Source: Prevotellamassilia timonensis (GTDB taxonomy: Bacteria; Bacteroidota; Bacteroidia; Bacteroidales; Bacteroidaceae). From it: DNA of 64,000 nucleotides. Shown in pieces: positions 2,839 through 58,364 of this stretch; positions within the stretch are counted from its first letter, which is position 1, and every line of letters starts with the position of its first letter. Made by a program: the position numbers and the translations under genes. The notes beneath the pieces were generated by a model. It was not told the origin of the DNA and did no database searches. It saw nothing but the letters and a program-made list of their open reading frames with translations. The stretch is from the NCBI RefSeq assembly GCF_900106785.1, contig NZ_LT629842.1:137694-201693 (forward strand), in the 5' to 3' direction.

Positions 2839-2883
2839 ATAATAATAGGGTCGTTAAGAGTGTTAGTTGTTACTATTCGCAAG

Positions 2884-2891
2884 CAAATTTA
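2884..2891 (-). promoter_or_regulatory. -7 type promoter box of maeB
   Basis: On the minus strand this reads TAAATTTG, matching the Bacteroidetes -7 consensus TAnnTTTG, about 46 nt before the maeB ATG. No clear TTTG -33 box stands at the usual distance, so the call is moderate. Confidence 0.4.
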
Positions 2892-3010
2892 CGATTTTTG
2901 TTTTATCGTGCGCGCTTGGCTATGCACAATTTTACTATTTGCTCTCATTTTGTGAAAGGTTATGCAAGAGGAAAGAGAAAGTCGTGCTATGGCGGGGTAG
3001 GGGCTGGCAG

Positions 3011-3092
3011 TTCTAGATTATTCTAGTTGTTCTAGATTTTCTAGAATATCTAGAATATCTAGAATTTCTAGAATATCTAGAACGTCTAGAAC
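3011..3092. repeat. 9-bp tandem repeat built on the palindrome TCTAGA
   Basis: About nine consecutive units with a 9-bp period, core TTCTAGAAT or ATCTAGAAT; the outer units have drifted. Each unit carries the 6-bp palindrome TCTAGA or a decayed form, so the block is a ladder of evenly spaced palindromes. It lies between the 3' end of the four-helix-bundle gene and the maeB promoter. The 9-bp pitch is a multiple of three, but no open frame with a start uses it. Confidence 0.85.
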
Positions 3093-3130
3093 CTCTACTC
3101 ATACCATATTCTTCATGCTATGGCGGCGCC

Positions 3131-3889
3131 TCAAGCTTTGCCCTTTAGCTTTGCTATTTCAGCTTTAAGGGCGGCTATTTCATCGGCTTGCCGATAGTAA
3201 GCGGCCAGGGCGCGCTGTTTGAGGTTGTTGTAAGCCTTTTGCCATGCTTCTGCTTCAGACTGGGCTTGCTGCAATGCTTGCTTGATGGCAGGTAAACTTG
3301 TTTCTAACTGCTTGAGACGCTCGTCTTGCTTATTGCGGAACCCCGTGCGTGCACGGTGCATGCGCTCCTTTATGCCTCCCTGCGTGATGAATTCTTGCTC
3401 AAGTTTCTTTAAGAAACTCATCATCATCTTGTCTGTCATGTGGCAGAGCGTGAGCGCATAGTTGCACATCTGCTCGTCAGTCCACTGGTCAAAGTAGGGC
3501 GCGTAGTCTTGCAGCTTGTTATGGTAGCGGCAGTATTTGAGCATAGGCTCGTATTGAGAGTGCGATGCGGTGTAGATTTGCTTATGACGTGATTTGAGAT
3601 AATCCTCAAAGTCCTCGCGTAGCTCTTTTAACGAGGCGCGTGCCACGTTGAGCAGTTTCAGTTGCATCTCGGTTGACGTTACACCATCGGCAAGCCCTTC
3701 TACGATGTTTTGTTTGCACGAGCGTGCGGCCTGTATCATTTGGTCACGTGTGCGGTCCTTGTAAAGGTGTATAAATCTGTTGCAGAAGGCAAACGACAGC
3801 TGATAGATAACGTCAGACTTTTGATAGAAAAACAATACGTCCCAATTCGTTTGGCGGGTCAGTACTGGTTGTTCCTCGTAGTTTTCCAT
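3131..3889 (-). CDS. four helix bundle protein with C-terminal suffix (S23/bAvd-like)
   Basis: A 252-residue protein whose first 130 residues fit the S23/bAvd-like four-helix-bundle family: DVIYQLSFAFCNRFIHLY, then RDQMIQAARSCKQNIVEG, then LKLLNVARASLKELREDFEDYL. A longer C-terminal helical suffix follows, ending in a coiled coil (from about residue 195, QALQQAQSEAEAWQ to LKAEIAKLKGK). Relatives are encoded inside 23S rRNA intervening sequences or act as accessory variability determinants in diversity-generating retroelements. Here there is no reverse transcriptase and no rRNA, so it is a stand-alone gene of unknown role. It follows alaS after a terminator hairpin and is followed by the TCTAGA repeat. 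Confidence 0.8.
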   Translation of the reverse strand: MENYEEQPVLTRQTNWDVLFFYQKSDVIYQLSFAFCNRFIHLYKDRTRDQMIQAARSCKQNIVEGLADGVTSTEMQLKLLNVARASLKELREDFEDYLKSRHKQIYTASHSQYEPMLKYCRYHNKLQDYAPYFDQWTDEQMCNYALTLCHMTDKMMMSFLKKLEQEFITQGGIKERMHRARTGFRNKQDERLKQLETSLPAIKQALQQAQSEAEAWQKAYNNLKQRALAAYYRQADEIAALKAEIAKLKGKA

Positions 3890-3906
3890 GGCGTGTGTCG
3901 TTAAGC

Positions 3907-3956
3907 AAAAGGCTGGCGCAACAAATAGTATGCTCTATTTATCGCGTCAGCCTTTT
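3907..3956 (-). terminator. alaS terminator
   Basis: A 13-bp stem (left arm 3907-3919 starting AAAAGGCTG, right arm 3944-3956 ending CAGCCTTTT, one G-T pair) sits between the alaS stop and the next gene. The AAAA/TTTT flanks give a T-run on the minus strand. Confidence 0.75.
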
Positions 3957-3997
3957 CAATATATTGTATTATCTGATAACGAGTTGTGACACCCTTA

Positions 3998-6622
3998 TCA
4001 AGCCAGTGCTAAGTCAACCACCTTCTTTACGGCTTCTTCAAGTCCGCTGGCGTCTTTACCACCGGCAGTGGCAAAGTGGGGTGCACCGCCGCCGCCGCCC
4101 TTGATGAGCTTGGCTGCTTCGCGCACGAGTTGGCCCGCATTGAGCTTTTTGCTCTCAACAAGGTTCTTGCTTATCATGACAGTGAGCAAAGGCTTGCCTT
4201 CGTGTGTTGAACCAAACACGCACAAGGTGTCGTTGGGCAATATGCCTGACACTTGGAAGGCGAGGTCCTTGACGGCGTTAGGTTCGATAGCAGTAGGAAT
4301 GACATACTTGATCAGACGTACGCCGTCCACATCGGTGGCACTGGCCACGAGTTTGTCGCGCAAGGCAACAAGTTGCTCTTTCACATAGCTCTCAACCTGT
4401 TTCTTCAAACCGTCGTTCTCCTCAATCGTCTTCTTGATGACAGCGGTAAGGTCCTTGGCATTGTTGAAGAATGACTTGAGGTTGCTCATTACGTCTTGCT
4501 GTGCGTAGACGCTCTCCTCGGCAGCCTCGCCAGTGATGGCTTCGATACGGCGTACGCCGGCGGCCACACTGCTTTCGCTAACGATGCGGAACAGGCCAAT
4601 GCGTCCGGTGCTCTTGGCATGGCAACCACCGCAAAATTCTACGCTGCTGCCAAATTGTACCACGCGCACCTTGTCGCCATACTTTTCGCCAAACAGGGCG
4701 ATAGCACCAAGTTTCTTGGCCTCCTCCATGGGCACGTCGCGGTGGTCTTGCAATGGAATGTCCTCGCGTATGCGGCGATTGACGATGCGCTCCACCTGGC
4801 GTAATTCCTCGGGAGTAACCTTCTGGAAGTGTGAGAAGTCGAAACGCAAGTAGTCGGGGGTGCAAAGTGAACCTTTTTGCTCCACATGCGTGCCGAGCAC
4901 CTCGCGCAACGCCTGGTCGAGCAAGTGGGTTGCGGTGTGGTTGGCCTCACTGCCGCGGCGCATCTTTACGTTCACCTCAGCATGGAAGGTAGCCTTGGCG
5001 TCGGCGGGCAATTTCTTTGTAAGGTGTATTGGCAAGTTGTTCTCGCGCTTGGTGTCGAATATCTCCACCTTGTCGTTGCCAGCCACGAGTACGCCTTGGT
5101 CGCCTACCTGACCACCCATTTCGGCATAGAAAGGAGTTTGGTCGAGCACCAATTCGTAGTAAGTTTGCTTTTTCTGTTGCACACGGCGGTAGCGCAAAAT
5201 GTGGCAGTCGCACTCCGTTACGTCCCAACCCTTAAATTCTGTTTCACCTTCGGCAAGGATTACCCAGTCGTCGGTTTCAACAGCCGCAGCGTTGCGGGCA
5301 CGTTCCTTTTGCTTTTGCATTTCGGTGTTAAAGCCTTCCTCGTCAACCTCCATGCCATTTTCGTGGCAGATGAGTTCAGTCAAGTCGAGCGGGAAACCAT
5401 AAGTGTCGAACAGTGTAAAGGCCTTTTCGCCGTCAACCACCGTCTTGCCCTCCTTCTTGGTCTGTGCAATCACGTTTTCAAGCATGTTGATACCAGTTGA
5501 AAGCGTGCGGAGAAAACTCTCCTCCTCCTCTTGCATCACACGGCCGATAAGCACCTGCTGTGCCTTGAGTTCGGGGAAAGCTTCGCCCATTTCATGCACC
5601 AAGGTAGGTACGAGTTTGCAAAGGAAAGCTTCGCGCTGGCCCAAGAAAGTGTAGGCATAACGCACGGCACGGCGCAAAATGCGGCGTATCACATAGCCAG
5701 CCTTGGCATTTGACGGCAACTGGCCATCAGCTATTGAAAATGAAATGGCACGCAAGTGGTCGGCAATTACGCGCATGGCCACATCAATCTTCTCGTCCTT
5801 GCCATATTCAAAGCCCGACAATTCGCCAATCTTCTTGATGATGGGCTGGAATATGTCGGTATCGTAGTTAGAGTTCTTGCCTTGAATAGCACGCACCAGT
5901 CGCTCAAAGCCCATGCCCGTATCAATCACATTCATGCCCAGTGGCACGAGCGAACCATTGGCTTTACGCTCAAACTGCATGAACACGATGTTCCAGATTT
6001 CGATAACCTGGGGGTCGTCCTTGTTCACGAGTTCACGTCCTGGCACCTTGGCCTTTTCCTCGGGTGTACGGCTGTCAAGGTGTATTTCTGAGCAGGGGCC
6101 GCAGGGACCTGTGTCGCCCATTTCCCAAAAGTTGTCGTGCTTGTTGCCGTCAATAATGTGGTCGGCAGGCACGTGCTTGGCCCAATACTTGGCAGCCTCG
6201 TCATCGCGGCTGAGGCCTTCTTCCTTCGAACCCTCAAACACCGTCACGTACAAGTCCGCCGGGTTAAGGTGCAACACGTCAACCAAATACTCCCAGGCAT
6301 AGTCAATGGCACCCTCCTTAAAGTAGTCGCCAAAGCTCCAGTTGCCAAGCATCTCAAACATGGTGTGGTGGTACGTGTCATGTCCAACCTCCTCCAGGTC
6401 ATTGTGCTTACCGCTCACGCGCAAGCACTTTTGCGAGTCGGCGCGGCGGCGTGGCTCGGGGTCGCGTTGGCCAAGGATAATATCTTTCCACTGGTTCATA
6501 CCAGCGTTGGTAAACATCAGAGTGGGGTCGTCCTTAATCACCATCGGAGCAGACGGCACAATGGTGTGTCCCTTCGACTCGAAAAACTTCTTGTACGAGT
6601 CGCGGATTTCGTTAGCTGTCAT
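3998..6622 (-). CDS. alaS: alanine-tRNA ligase
   Basis: An 874-residue class II aminoacyl-tRNA synthetase that charges tRNA-Ala. Visible parts in order: the catalytic domain ([22 protein letters not shown] at the N-terminus, [34 protein letters not shown]), the editing domain zinc motifs (HTATH near 560 and CGGCH near 665), and the glycine-rich C-Ala end ([16 protein letters not shown]). The frame is open 27 codons further upstream, but that stretch contains the promoter. The start was therefore set at the MTANEIRD methionine; the codon before it is also ATG. Length is normal. Followed by a terminator hairpin, so probably monocistronic. Confidence 0.97.
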
Positions 6623-14355: not shown

Positions 14356-14391
14356 AAGGAACAAGACAAAAAAGTTGCACTTGGGACCATC

Positions 14392-14871
14392 TACCATACT
14401 ACAAAAGCTTTACTTACCGTGCATCTTACACAAACACGTTGCAACTCATTGGCTATCAATACTTTTCTCAGTGTAAGATGTTACTGAATCCACCTACACG
14501 CAACCTGCACAATCTACACACCCCATATACTGCCGCACGTCACAAACACGGGAGGGCGATATCACAACATAGGGGAGCAGAAAAGTCTGTTGCTCCGACA
14601 GATTTTTCTACGTCCCTTTGGCGTAAACCCCGCCGCATACGTCCAAACCGACTGCGAAGCAAAGGGGTGGGGTGTGTAAGATGTGTGCAGGGGCGTGTAA
14701 GATACTTTGAAATCATCTTACACTCTTGAAACCTCTGTGTATCAACTTGCTACGCACAAAAAGTGTAAGATGGCAGTAAAAGCACATGCACTCTTTTATA
14801 AGAGGAATGACGGGGAGGGAACAAATATTTGTGTACAAGTTGTACACTTCTTTTGATGGGTGCAATGCCTT
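14392..14871. repeat. 480-bp dispersed element, copy A
   Basis: Homologous over its whole length, inverted, to 34975-35453. Both copies are about 480 bp and similar by eye at roughly four bases in five. The word GTGTAAGATG or its complement occurs six times (near 14422, 14471, 14674, 14695, 14714, 14763). The centre (14568-14616) is identical in both copies and folds as a long hairpin: GGGA, AGAAAA and TCTGT pair with ACAGA, TTTTCT and TCCC around the loop TGCTCCG. A further palindrome GTGTACAAGTTGTACAC lies near 14831. No coding frame is conserved between the copies. Confidence 0.85.
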
Positions 14872-22272: not shown

Positions 22273-23295
22273 TTACTTGCTGTTACTCTTGTAATACTTG
22301 ATAAGTTTAGGTACAACTTCTTCAACCGAGCCTGTGATGATGTAGTCGGCTATTTGGTTGATGGGGGCCTCGGGGTCGGTGTTGATAGAGATGATGATGC
22401 CGCTCTCTTTCATGCCGGCCACGTGCTGAATGGCACCGCTTATGCCGCAGGCAATGTACACCTTGGGACGGACGGTCACACCTGTCTGGCCAATTTGCAG
22501 GTCGTGCTCGCAGTAGCCGGCATCAACGGCTGCACGGCTGGCACCAACCTCGCCGTGGAGTTCCTCTGCCAACTTGCGCAACAAGTCAAAGCCCTCTTTT
22601 GAGCCTACACCGTAGCCGCCGGCCACAATGATGGGCGCTCCCTTCAAGTTGTTCTTGGCCTTCTCCACATGGCGTTCAATCACCTTGACCACGTAGTCTG
22701 TCTCGGGCACAAATTTAGCCACGTCTTCATACACAATCTCGCCATTGTAGTATTCGGCCACCTTCTCGGCCTTCATCACGCCAGAGCGCACGGTGGCCAT
22801 TTGGGGACGGTGGTCGGGATTAACGATGGTGGCCACAATGTTGCCACCAAAGGCCGGACGAATTTGGTAGAGCAAGTTGTCGTAGTGCTTCTTGTTCTTC
22901 TTGTCGTCAAAATCGCCAATCTCGAGTGCCGTACAGTCGGCAGTAAGTCCGCTGGTGAGCGATGACGACACGCGCGGACCGAGGTCGCGGCCAATGACCG
23001 TGGCCCCCATCAGGCAGATTTGCGGTTTCTCTTGCTTGAACAGGTTGACCAAAATGCTTGTGTGAGGCTTTGAGGTGTAGGGAAAGAGTCCTTCGGCATC
23101 AAACACGTGCAGCTTGTCCACGCCGTATGACAGGATATCCTTTTCAACGTGTCCCTTAATGCCAGTGCCAGCCACTACGGCCTCGAGCTGCACACCCAGC
23201 TCGTTGGCAAGTTTGCGACCCTTGGTCAGGAGTTCGAAAGACACTTCCTCAACCGTGGTCTTATCTATTTCGCAATATACAAATACGTTATTCAT
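22273..23295 (-). CDS. etfA: electron transfer flavoprotein subunit alpha
   Basis: 340 residues. The C-terminal FAD-binding signature is complete: GGYGVGSKEGFDLLRKLAEELH, GEVGASRAAVDAGY, QIGQTGVTVRPKVYIACGISGAIQHVAGM and SINTDPEAPINQIADY. With EtfB it forms a heterodimer carrying one FAD. It takes electrons from the acyl-CoA dehydrogenase encoded downstream, or passes them to it in bifurcating versions. It lies 6 nt after etfB and 4 nt before the dehydrogenase gene, so the three are surely one transcript. Confidence 0.96.
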   Translation of the reverse strand: MNNVFVYCEIDKTTVEEVSFELLTKGRKLANELGVQLEAVVAGTGIKGHVEKDILSYGVDKLHVFDAEGLFPYTSKPHTSILVNLFKQEKPQICLMGATVIGRDLGPRVSSSLTSGLTADCTALEIGDFDDKKNKKHYDNLLYQIRPAFGGNIVATIVNPDHRPQMATVRSGVMKAEKVAEYYNGEIVYEDVAKFVPETDYVVKVIERHVEKAKNNLKGAPIIVAGGYGVGSKEGFDLLRKLAEELHGEVGASRAAVDAGYCEHDLQIGQTGVTVRPKVYIACGISGAIQHVAGMKESGIIISINTDPEAPINQIADYIITGSVEEVVPKLIKYYKSNSK

Positions 23296-34607: not shown

Positions 34608-34930
34608 AGCTTATGTTTTCCGCGCTAAGCGGCTGACACAAACGTTATATCTTATGTTCTTTTGTTCTTATGTCCTCCGCGTTAGCGGTTCGCTACGGCG
34701 TCAGCCCTTATGTTTCTTTGGCCACGCGGACGTTAGTCCGTGGCCAGCCGCGCAGCGGCCTTTTGTGTATCTTATGTAAACTTATGTTGCTTATGTTTTC
34801 CGCGCTAAGCGGCTAACACGAACGTAAATTCTTTTGTTCTTATGTCCTTTTGTTCTTATGTTCTCCGCGTTAGCGGCAAACCTTATAGAGCGTAGCATTC
34901 TGTTAAGCATTCGTTTCATGGTAGTCAATA
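34608..34930. repeat. mosaic of short repeats (CTTATGTTTTCCGCGCTAAGCGG)
   Basis: CTTATGTTTTCCGCGCTAAG occurs twice (near 34612 and 34790); TATGTTCTCCGCGTTAGCGG-like units about three times. One GGCTAACGCC-type hairpin and GGACGTTAGTCCGTGGCCA lie between them. No gene. The block sits between the copy-1 element and element B, making a run of about 1.6 kb of non-coding repeats. Confidence 0.7.
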
Positions 34931-34974: not shown

Positions 34975-35453
34975 GAGGCATTGCATTCAACAAAAAAAGT
35001 GTACAATTTGTACACAAATATTTGTCCTCTCCCCGTTATCCCTCTTGTAAAAGAGTGCGTGCGTTTTTACTGCCATCTTACACTTTTTGTGCGTAATAGA
35101 TTGATATACAGAGGTTTCAAGAGTGTAAGATGATTTCAAGGTATCTTACACACCCCTGCACACATCTTACACACTACACCCCGCAGCCAAGTAGCCGATT
35201 TGTACGTATGCGGTGGGCCTTACACCACTGGGACGTAGAAAAATCTGTCGGAGCAACAGACTTTTCTGCTCCCCTATGCCGTGACATCGCCCTCCCGTGC
35301 TTGTGCCGTATGGCAGCGTGTGGGGTGTGTAGGATGCGTGTAGGTGATATTGGCAGCATCTTACACTAAGCAAAGTGTTGACAATCAATGAGTTGCAGCG
35401 TGTTAGTGTAAGATGCAAGATACACTGTAAGTAAAGCTTTTGTAGTATGGTAA
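34975..35453. repeat. 480-bp dispersed element, copy B (inverted relative to A)
   Basis: Reverse-complement counterpart of 14392-14871. The 49-nt core hairpin is identical, and again six GTGTAAGATG-type words occur (near 35073, 35123, 35143, 35163, 35358 and 35406). The flanks differ from those of copy A except for REP half units nearby. The end at 34965-34975 carries GCAAAGGTAA, which on the minus strand is a TTACCTTTGC promoter-like box pointing away from the element. No conserved coding frame. Confidence 0.85.
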
Positions 35454-35536
35454 AAGCCCCGCAAGCACTAAACGCAAGCACTAAACGCTACCACTAAACG
35501 CAAGCACTAATGGGGGCGACGCGTCCCGCGTCGGGC
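35454..35536. repeat. REP half copy with repeated AACGCAAGCACT units
   Basis: Four units of CTAAACGCAAGCA or CTAAACGCTACCA lead into one GC-rich hairpin (GGGGGCGACGCGTCCCGCG). The right half is absent. Together with element B it resembles the arrangement beside element A. The stretch from 35537 to 35892 has only short GTTAACCCGTTAAC-type decamers before the next start codon. Confidence 0.75.
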
Positions 35537-57060: not shown

Positions 57061-57660
57061 GCGCGTAGTGCTCGTAGATGTGTGGGTGTGCAGATGGGCT
57101 GACACCGTAGCGGGTTATGCGTGTGGTGCGCGTTGTGCTCGCAAATGTGTGGGTGTGCAGATGTGTAGATACCGGTGAAAAACCTACACTAACTGTTTTT
57201 TGTAAAACTGTCTGCACTCTGCACTTTTTGCCGTAAGTGTACTGATTATCAATGGGAAAAATAGTGTAGGTAGTGTGTAGAATAGTCTGCACTGTGTCTG
57301 CACACTGTTGTAATCAGGTTAACACTTAGTGTAGACAAGTGCAGACAAGTGTAGGCAAGTGCAGGTAGTTGCTTGCACTGTGTCTGCACGGTGGCATTTG
57401 TCTTTGTCGGGGGTGGAATATCTGTTCGTACTTGGCGGACGGCAGGGTAACGGGAGGCCGTTGCGTCAATCCGTCCGAACGCATTTTCTGTATGCCGTGA
57501 CAGAAAAACATGGCTCCCGTTGCGCAAAAAAATACACTGCCAGTGCAGAATGGTGCAGATGGCAGTGCAAGTAATTTTTGATGTTGTCTACACTACTTTA
57601 ATGCTTGATTATCAATGCGTTATATGGTAAAAGTGTAGAGTGCAGACAAATTGTCGAAAA
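57061..57660. repeat. element C: diverged relative of the 480-bp family (candidate)
   Basis: A gap of about 770 bp filled with the words GTGCAGAC, GTGTAGAC and TGTCTGCAC (ten or more, both orientations). TGATTATCAATG stands at both sides (near 57243 and 57605), and a central hairpin TTTTCTGT-ATGCCGTG-ACAGAAAA lies within ACGGGAG and CTCCCGT flanks. Layout and hairpin resemble elements A and B, but the repeated word differs and no long alignment was seen. GGGCTGACACCGTAGCGGG lies at the left end. No gene. Confidence 0.55.
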
Positions 57661-57692
57661 AATGTTTTAGGGGGTGGAGAGTGTGATTTCTT

Positions 57693-58364
57693 TTACCCGA
57701 ACACCGTCCAGAGTTTGTTGCCCTCAGGGTAGGGGGCGTCCACAGCAATGAGTTTGTGGCTCACGGGGTGCTCAAACTCAATGTGGCGGGCGTGCAGACA
57801 AATGGAACCATCGGGGTTGGAACGCGGTGCACCATATTTCAGGTCGCCCTTGATGACACAGCGCATGGCTGCCAACTGGCAGCGTATTTGGTGGTGGCGG
57901 CCGGTGTGCAAATTAACCTCGAGCAGGTGGTAGCGGTCAGAACTGCCAATGAGACGGTAGTCGAGCACAGCCTTTTTGCTGCCCGGCACCTCCTGGCGGT
58001 GGGCATAAGCCTTGTTCTGCTTTTCGTTGCGTGTGAGCCAGTGTGTGAGGGTGCTAGATGGCTCTGCCGGGGCGGCGCATACAATGGCGTGGTACGTCTT
58101 GTGGATTTTGCCTCCCACGCGAAACATTTCGTTGAGTCGTGCCAGGGCCTTGCTGGTGCGTGCAAACACTACCACACCGCTGACGGGACGGTCGAGACGG
58201 TGTACAACACCCAGAAAAACCTCGCCGGGCTTGTTGTACTTGTGCTTGATGTAAGCCTTCACCTCGTCGGCCAATGTGCGGTCGCCCGTTTTGTCACCTT
58301 GCACAATCTCGCCGGGGGCTTTGTTGACGATGATGACGTGGTTGTCTTCGTATAGAACAGTCAT
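57693..58364 (-). CDS. RluA-family pseudouridine synthase
   Basis: 223 residues. The catalytic motif GVVHRLDRPVSGVVVFA is intact, with the Asp in HRLDR. Further family parts are NKAPGEIVQGDKTG at the N-terminus, ALARLNEMFR, HLLEVNLHTGRHHQIRCQLA and the ending RHIEFEHPVSHK. No N-terminal S4 domain, so it is a RluA/C/D-like core of the smaller kind. It isomerises uridine in rRNA or tRNA; the target site cannot be read. No operon partner: repeat elements lie on both sides. Confidence 0.93.
   Translation of the reverse strand: MTVLYEDNHVIIVNKAPGEIVQGDKTGDRTLADEVKAYIKHKYNKPGEVFLGVVHRLDRPVSGVVVFARTSKALARLNEMFRVGGKIHKTYHAIVCAAPAEPSSTLTHWLTRNEKQNKAYAHRQEVPGSKKAVLDYRLIGSSDRYHLLEVNLHTGRHHQIRCQLAAMRCVIKGDLKYGAPRSNPDGSICLHARHIEFEHPVSHKLIAVDAPYPEGNKLWTVFG

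Follow-up and report, generated by a model that had tools for sequence, protein, structure and literature searches.

We found that the two 480-bp repeats of the analyzed window, a 64,000-nt stretch of the Prevotellamassilia timonensis genome, belong to a set of about 145 non-coding DNA modules, a number extrapolated from one contig. Each module has a hairpin between mirrored binding-site-like repeats (iterons), and the modules are spread at quasi-even intervals of about 24 kb along the chromosome of this gut-type bacterium. This arrangement looks unlike ordinary jumping DNA and suggests an unrecognised way of marking or organising a bacterial chromosome. We read the module as a DNA-level, origin-like protein-assembly site, spread partly by a helicase-encoding element, and we give this reading a probability of about 0.45.

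The first-pass annotation had described the two repeats as inverted non-coding copies with an identical 49-nt hairpin core, and this observation was confirmed, although it was a small part of what is present. The segments 14392-14871 (+) and 34975-35453 (-) aligned end to end, and the identical core was exactly 49 nt. The core folded far better than shuffled sequences (z -6.1, 0/200), with 12 pairs next to the loop TGCTCCG (one of them G-T) followed by 4-5 outer pairs across two mismatches. As had been claimed, the loop was complementary to the stem base, through a 6-nt GGAGCA in the 5' arm. The six copies of GTGTAAGATG claimed for each repeat were five exact occurrences plus one with a single mismatch, and two of the six were on the opposite strand. 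Three further corrections were required: the 480 bp is the 5' part of a unit that reaches 1.91 kb with a gene; the whole 480 bp is itself an imperfect palindrome, in which positions 31-385 match their own reverse complement, centred on the hairpin; and the window contains a third, diverged member that had not been seen. The three members lie at about 14.6, 35.25 and 57.4 kb of the window, and their features are as follows.

14376-14871 (+): module copy 1 (family A), with inverted iterons, hairpin and operator/promoter region; the gene is absent (3' truncated); profile hit at 14376-14819, E 3.8e-64
14422-14431 (-): iteron 1, CATCTTACAC (outer, left)
14471-14480 (+): iteron 2, GTGTAAGATG
14568-14616 (+): 49-nt invariant core with hairpin; loop TGCTCCG at 14591-14597
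14674-14683 (+): iteron 3, GTGTAAGATG
14695-14704 (+): iteron 4, GTGTAAGATA (one mismatch)
14714-14723 (-): iteron 5, CATCTTACAC
14763-14772 (+): iteron 6, GTGTAAGATG (outer, right)
14831-14847 (no strand): palindrome GTGTACAAGTTGTACAC, shared with the VapE-carrying families; likely operator
34975-35490 (-): module copy 2 (family A); profile hit at 35486-35028, E 2.4e-74
35230-35278 (-): 49-nt core of copy 2; loop TGCTCCG at 35249-35255
34999-35015 (no strand): palindrome GTGTACAAATTGTACAC of copy 2, followed by a Bacteroidales-type promoter (TTTTTTTG ... TTACCTTTG)
34888-34919 (-): 5' remnant of the VapE-like helicase gene (ATGAAACGAATGCTTAACAGAATGCTACGC), cut off by another repeat
57148-57698 (-): module 3 (diverged, other family), with GTCTGCAC/GTGCAGAC iterons, TTGATAATCA motifs and a degenerate hairpin; nhmmer E 2.9e-58

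The 480-bp repeat has about 50 copies in the genome, a 3.48-Mb assembly of 17 contigs that is 99.4% complete. At least 40 full-length copies were found at 81-85% identity, and a search with up to 3 mismatches gave 48 core hits against 0 for the reversed pattern. No copy was found in 36 genomes of the same genus or 24 of the same order, and these 60 genomes together with phages and plasmids gave no DNA match to the 480 bp. One stricter pattern search of the own genome was too strict to be useful. No strand or gene-orientation preference of the copies was found.

Aligned flanks of the copies run on through a palindrome (GTGTACAANTTGTACAC) and a Bacteroidales-type promoter into a gene. Three copies are complete over 1.91 kb and encode an intact 455-residue protein, with ORFs called by simple rules. 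The protein is a VapE-like SF3 helicase (PF05272, 5.2e-26), and its AlphaFold2 model (pLDDT 81) was closest to PriRep1, the replication helicase of staphylococcal pathogenicity islands, solved with DNA (Foldseek match to 7pds, E 1e-16, TM 0.6). The dN/dS between intact copies was 0.09-0.16, so the gene is kept functional. The other copies are truncated at the 3' side, and only 10 right ends were found against 49 left ends. Circular-permuted integration was rejected, as all copies share the left end. Four loci share one identical internal deletion (841-1793), so a non-autonomous form has itself multiplied. The conserved unit ends at the helicase stop codon, and the flanks differ between copies. 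No terminal inverted repeat or target duplication was evident at the six ends inspected, and no transposase or integrase was seen. One intact unit (locus L050, contig C17 at 888.4-890.3 kb) sits between two arms of another long inverted repeat (ccgtgcaatcggtgcgatccgtgagcgataatatcagaatgg), as if inserted in its loop, and the same sequence occurs at 14.1-14.2 kb of the window.

Four more VapE genes (67% identical) are each preceded by a different non-coding region of the same design (families B and C): mirrored iterons (in one, five NTCTGCAC boxes at 11-bp steps), a TGATTATCA motif, a 22-26-pair hairpin with loop TGCTCCG or TGCTCTG, the same palindrome, and a promoter. The inverted iterons lie upstream of the gene in families A and B, whereas family C was weaker by motif count. 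Scans of genomes and viral sequences with the close VapE alignment returned nothing, and a viral pattern scan gave 7 hits, about what we estimate chance would give. A wider VapE scan gave 80 Bacteroidales loci, but none has the hairpin and none shows GTGTARR enrichment, so hairpin plus VapE is not a general VapE feature.

To understand whether the stem is maintained by compensating changes, as the first-pass annotation had proposed as a test of a structured RNA, we compared stems within and between families. Within family A, stem changes break pairs without compensation, the very outcome that had been named as refuting: the 5' arm is nearly invariant and the 3' arm drifts. In contrast, between families A, B and C, 13 of 23 stem pairs change on both sides (0/500 shuffles; slid controls far lower), and 17 of 23 do so in a wider set partly chosen by structure. 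The loop/stem-base complementarity proposed as a pseudoknot was 6 nt in family A but only 3 nt in B and C, and the loop orientation relative to the gene is reversed in family C. We therefore read the hairpin as a DNA feature; the covariation between families may reflect selection for a cruciform, or palindrome correction during replication.

Across 49 copies the iteron columns had a diversity of 0.017 against 0.19 elsewhere, and no shifted mask reached this (0/469). The contrast held in 24 copies without the gene body, with 0.012 against 0.116 changes per site, and singleton changes were also rarer in iterons (4 vs 89; p 0.003). Gene-less copies are therefore not simply decaying.

A structure model found about 90 hairpin modules in the genome. 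The further ones examined carry no VapE remnant, and those checked lie among ordinary host genes. These sites never lay closer than 8.9 kb, where random placement expects about 18 shorter gaps. To exclude a search artefact, we scanned contig C17 of the same genome, all but its last 32 kb (1.2 Mb, about a third of the genome), first directly and then with a full-module sequence profile. The profile gave 50 modules at E<=1e-10, most below 1e-40, and none in the reversed sequence. The mean gap was 23.8 kb, the minimum 9.4 kb and the coefficient of variation (CV) 0.469, while the lowest CV in 100,000 random placements was 0.577 and the largest random minimum gap 4.6 kb. A hard 9.4-kb exclusion alone would give a CV of about 0.59 (p 0.06). 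One partial hit (910650, E 8e-9) lies 3.4 kb from a module, and its inclusion gives a CV of 0.489; hits within 700 bp were merged, so tandem copies would be missed. Gaps between family A and other families obey the same floor. As a control, clusters of a small REP on the same contig were clumped (CV 1.53).

We also found spaced modules in a second species of the genus (genome G069, a fragmented, 86% complete assembly), in which no VapE was detected. Its module is about 394 bp long and occurs in at least 40 copies, mostly 66-77% identical to the query copy, with sharp GTGTGCAAT ends, conserved blocks and a 23-pair hairpin with a 7-nt loop; no compensation was found within this family either. 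In 389 kb it occurs 19 times with a mean gap of 20.0 kb and a CV of 0.215 (0/20,000 random placements as even). The sequence differs, while the architecture and spacing recur. Module positions were not demonstrably conserved between species (42 ortholog pairs).

The GC skew of C17 switches sign once, at about 775 kb, so the modules are not the chromosome's main replication origins. A weak skew saw-tooth in phase with the modules is superimposed on this switch (right-minus-left jump about +0.03; slope p 0.001 by circular shift) and exceeds matched intergenic controls (p 0.003), but it was not seen in G069, where only 14 modules could be examined. It is compatible with auxiliary fork starts or with gene arrangement, and we do not lean on it.

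The first-pass interpretation, a structured RNA or a protein-recognition element spread by a mobile mechanism and perhaps tied to a REP-type transposase, was supported only in part. A dispersed protein-recognition element that has spread is supported by the copy number, the near-invariant iterons and the shared deletion form; the structured RNA and the REP-type transposase are not supported. The helicase gene and the regular spacing could not be seen in the first pass. In our reading, inverted sets of iterons flank a cruciform-capable hairpin, the anatomy of an iteron origin, and modules of several sequence families form a quasi-periodic array. The computations themselves establish the anatomy, number, spacing and conservation, the VapE/SF3 helicase gene attached to seven modules (families A, B and C) with its resemblance to a satellite replication initiator, and the spread of family A by copying. 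The rest is inference: an iteron-binding protein, the VapE helicase or a partner that coevolves with it, would load on the modules and open or bridge the DNA, and the array would serve a chromosome-scale role (organisation, anchoring or auxiliary helicase loading) that keeps each module in place and modules apart. VapE is only a candidate for the cognate protein; no host protein that binds the modules was identified, and binding was not assayed. In this view, the sequence dialect of the array turns over between species while spacing and architecture persist, and family A is the dialect most recently spread here, together with its helicase gene. Most modules outside families A-C carry no helicase gene, remnant or operator, and the second species has no detectable VapE, so VapE may be a passenger. 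The boldest form of this view, somewhat more tentative still, is that species of this Bacteroidales genus carry a chromosome-wide array, about every 20-24 kb, of origin-like modules with a species-specific dialect, read by an SF3-type helicase or a coevolving binding protein, which gives the chromosome a regularly spaced set of helicase-loading or topological anchor sites.

The main rival, possible and only slightly less favored, is a selfish helicase-encoding mobile element of satellite or transposon type, with the 480 bp as its replication origin and left end and VapE as its initiator; gene-less copies would be moved in trans, and target immunity around existing copies would give the even spacing. 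The three intact copies under purifying selection, the 5'-anchored truncations, the deletion derivatives, the scarcity of right ends and the absence of TGCTCCG-type copies from relatives favor it, and by inference saturating insertion with a 10-15 kb exclusion zone would also give low-variance gaps. The 9.4-kb minimum gap fits such a zone, but neither a mechanism nor cross-family recognition is known, so the gap does not decide between immunity and host selection, and no population data were examined. Against this rival, no transposase, integrase, inverted termini or target duplication was seen, unlike families exclude each other, very diverged gene-less modules keep full-length anatomy and iterons instead of decaying, and the array also exists in a species without detected VapE. 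A structured RNA or attenuator transcribed from each copy, with the hairpin and pseudoknot as the functional fold, is unlikely: the strong predicted hairpin and the covariation between families speak for it, but compensation within families is lacking, the pseudoknot is not conserved, the mirror-image iterons outside the hairpin are the most constrained part, the anatomy reads as double-stranded binding sites, the hairpin lies on the opposite strand relative to the gene in family C, and an Rfam scan of the window gave no match. Transcription was not looked at, as RNA-seq data were lacking.

A giant REP/BIME-like element mobilised by a RAYT (Y1) transposase is very unlikely. Whether the repeat tracks a REP-type transposase had been put forward as a check, and we found that the genome's only Y1-type transposase gene, a RAYT (locus L297:3271-3891 (-), contig C15 at about 260.77-261.39 kb; flanks 2850-4440), is flanked on both sides by arrays of a different small repeat, the 509-copy ACGCGTCGCCCCCATTAG, in inverted pairs of CCCGACGCGAGACGCGTCGCCCCCATTAG: a clean RAYT/REP pair in Bacteroidales. 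In G069, the RAYT (locus L298:3074-3862 (+), within 2860-5084) is likewise flanked by long arrays of a different REP (TAGTAGTACCACGTCCATTGACGTGGTACTCAG), with one copy of that species' spaced module 0.25 kb away. A module does lie within about 0.7 kb of the RAYT gene in both genomes, and REP arrays often sit next to modules; however, REP copies are clumped and modules evenly spaced. The REP-transposase idea therefore applies to that other repeat.

Compared with known systems, the SaPI/PICI-type satellite replication module (PriRep/Rep helicase plus iteron origin) also has an SF3/AAA+ helicase next to inverted iterons, and SaPI replication initiators have helicase and primase activity (PMC7145576). 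In contrast, no integrase, att sites, packaging or interference genes or other island genes accompany the unit described here, most of the about 145 modules in one chromosome lack the gene, and a central hairpin with a conserved heptamer loop and even spacing are present. MITEs and non-autonomous insertion sequences are likewise multi-copy, intergenic, gene-less derivatives of a gene-bearing unit, and a shared internal deletion was found here; however, the only gene of this unit is VapE-like, no terminal inverted repeats or target duplications were seen, iterons are constrained in dead copies and spacing is even. REP/BIME elements are palindromic intergenic repeats in hundreds of copies, and a RAYT is present, but it tracks another repeat, and the modules are more than ten times longer than REPs and evenly spaced. 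Chromosome-organising site arrays (matS, parS, Noc sites) also consist of many dispersed copies of a protein-binding site, and the non-random spacing found here fits such an array; those sites are short (10-30 bp) motifs, whereas each site here is about 480 bp with iterons and a hairpin, and the sequence differs completely between species of one genus. We know of no bacterial chromosome with a complex, roughly 480-bp repeated site at near-even 20-24 kb intervals, and a limited literature search found none. If the array is host-selected, it exposes a layer of chromosome organisation with fast-changing sequence dialects; if it comes from target immunity, it is an SF3-helicase-driven mobile element of a kind not described, with cross-family immunity.

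Additionally, another multi-copy hairpin repeat, TATCGGGGGACAGAAACCCTCAC...GGGAACATCTGCGCCCCGATA, flanked by AAGTAGGTGTTCAAAAT inverted ends, was found on C17 at 432311, 942372 and 1014975 (loci L326, L352 and L355) and looks like a separate MITE. Another genome examined, G016, carries short (about 100 bp) palindromic repeats (AGTGTAGTCCCAGAAATTTCTAT CGCTACG ATAG...) in many copies, for example at 22693, 55675, 63289 and 76972 of its contig C1; these are shorter, irregularly and more closely spaced, and were not counted as the same thing.
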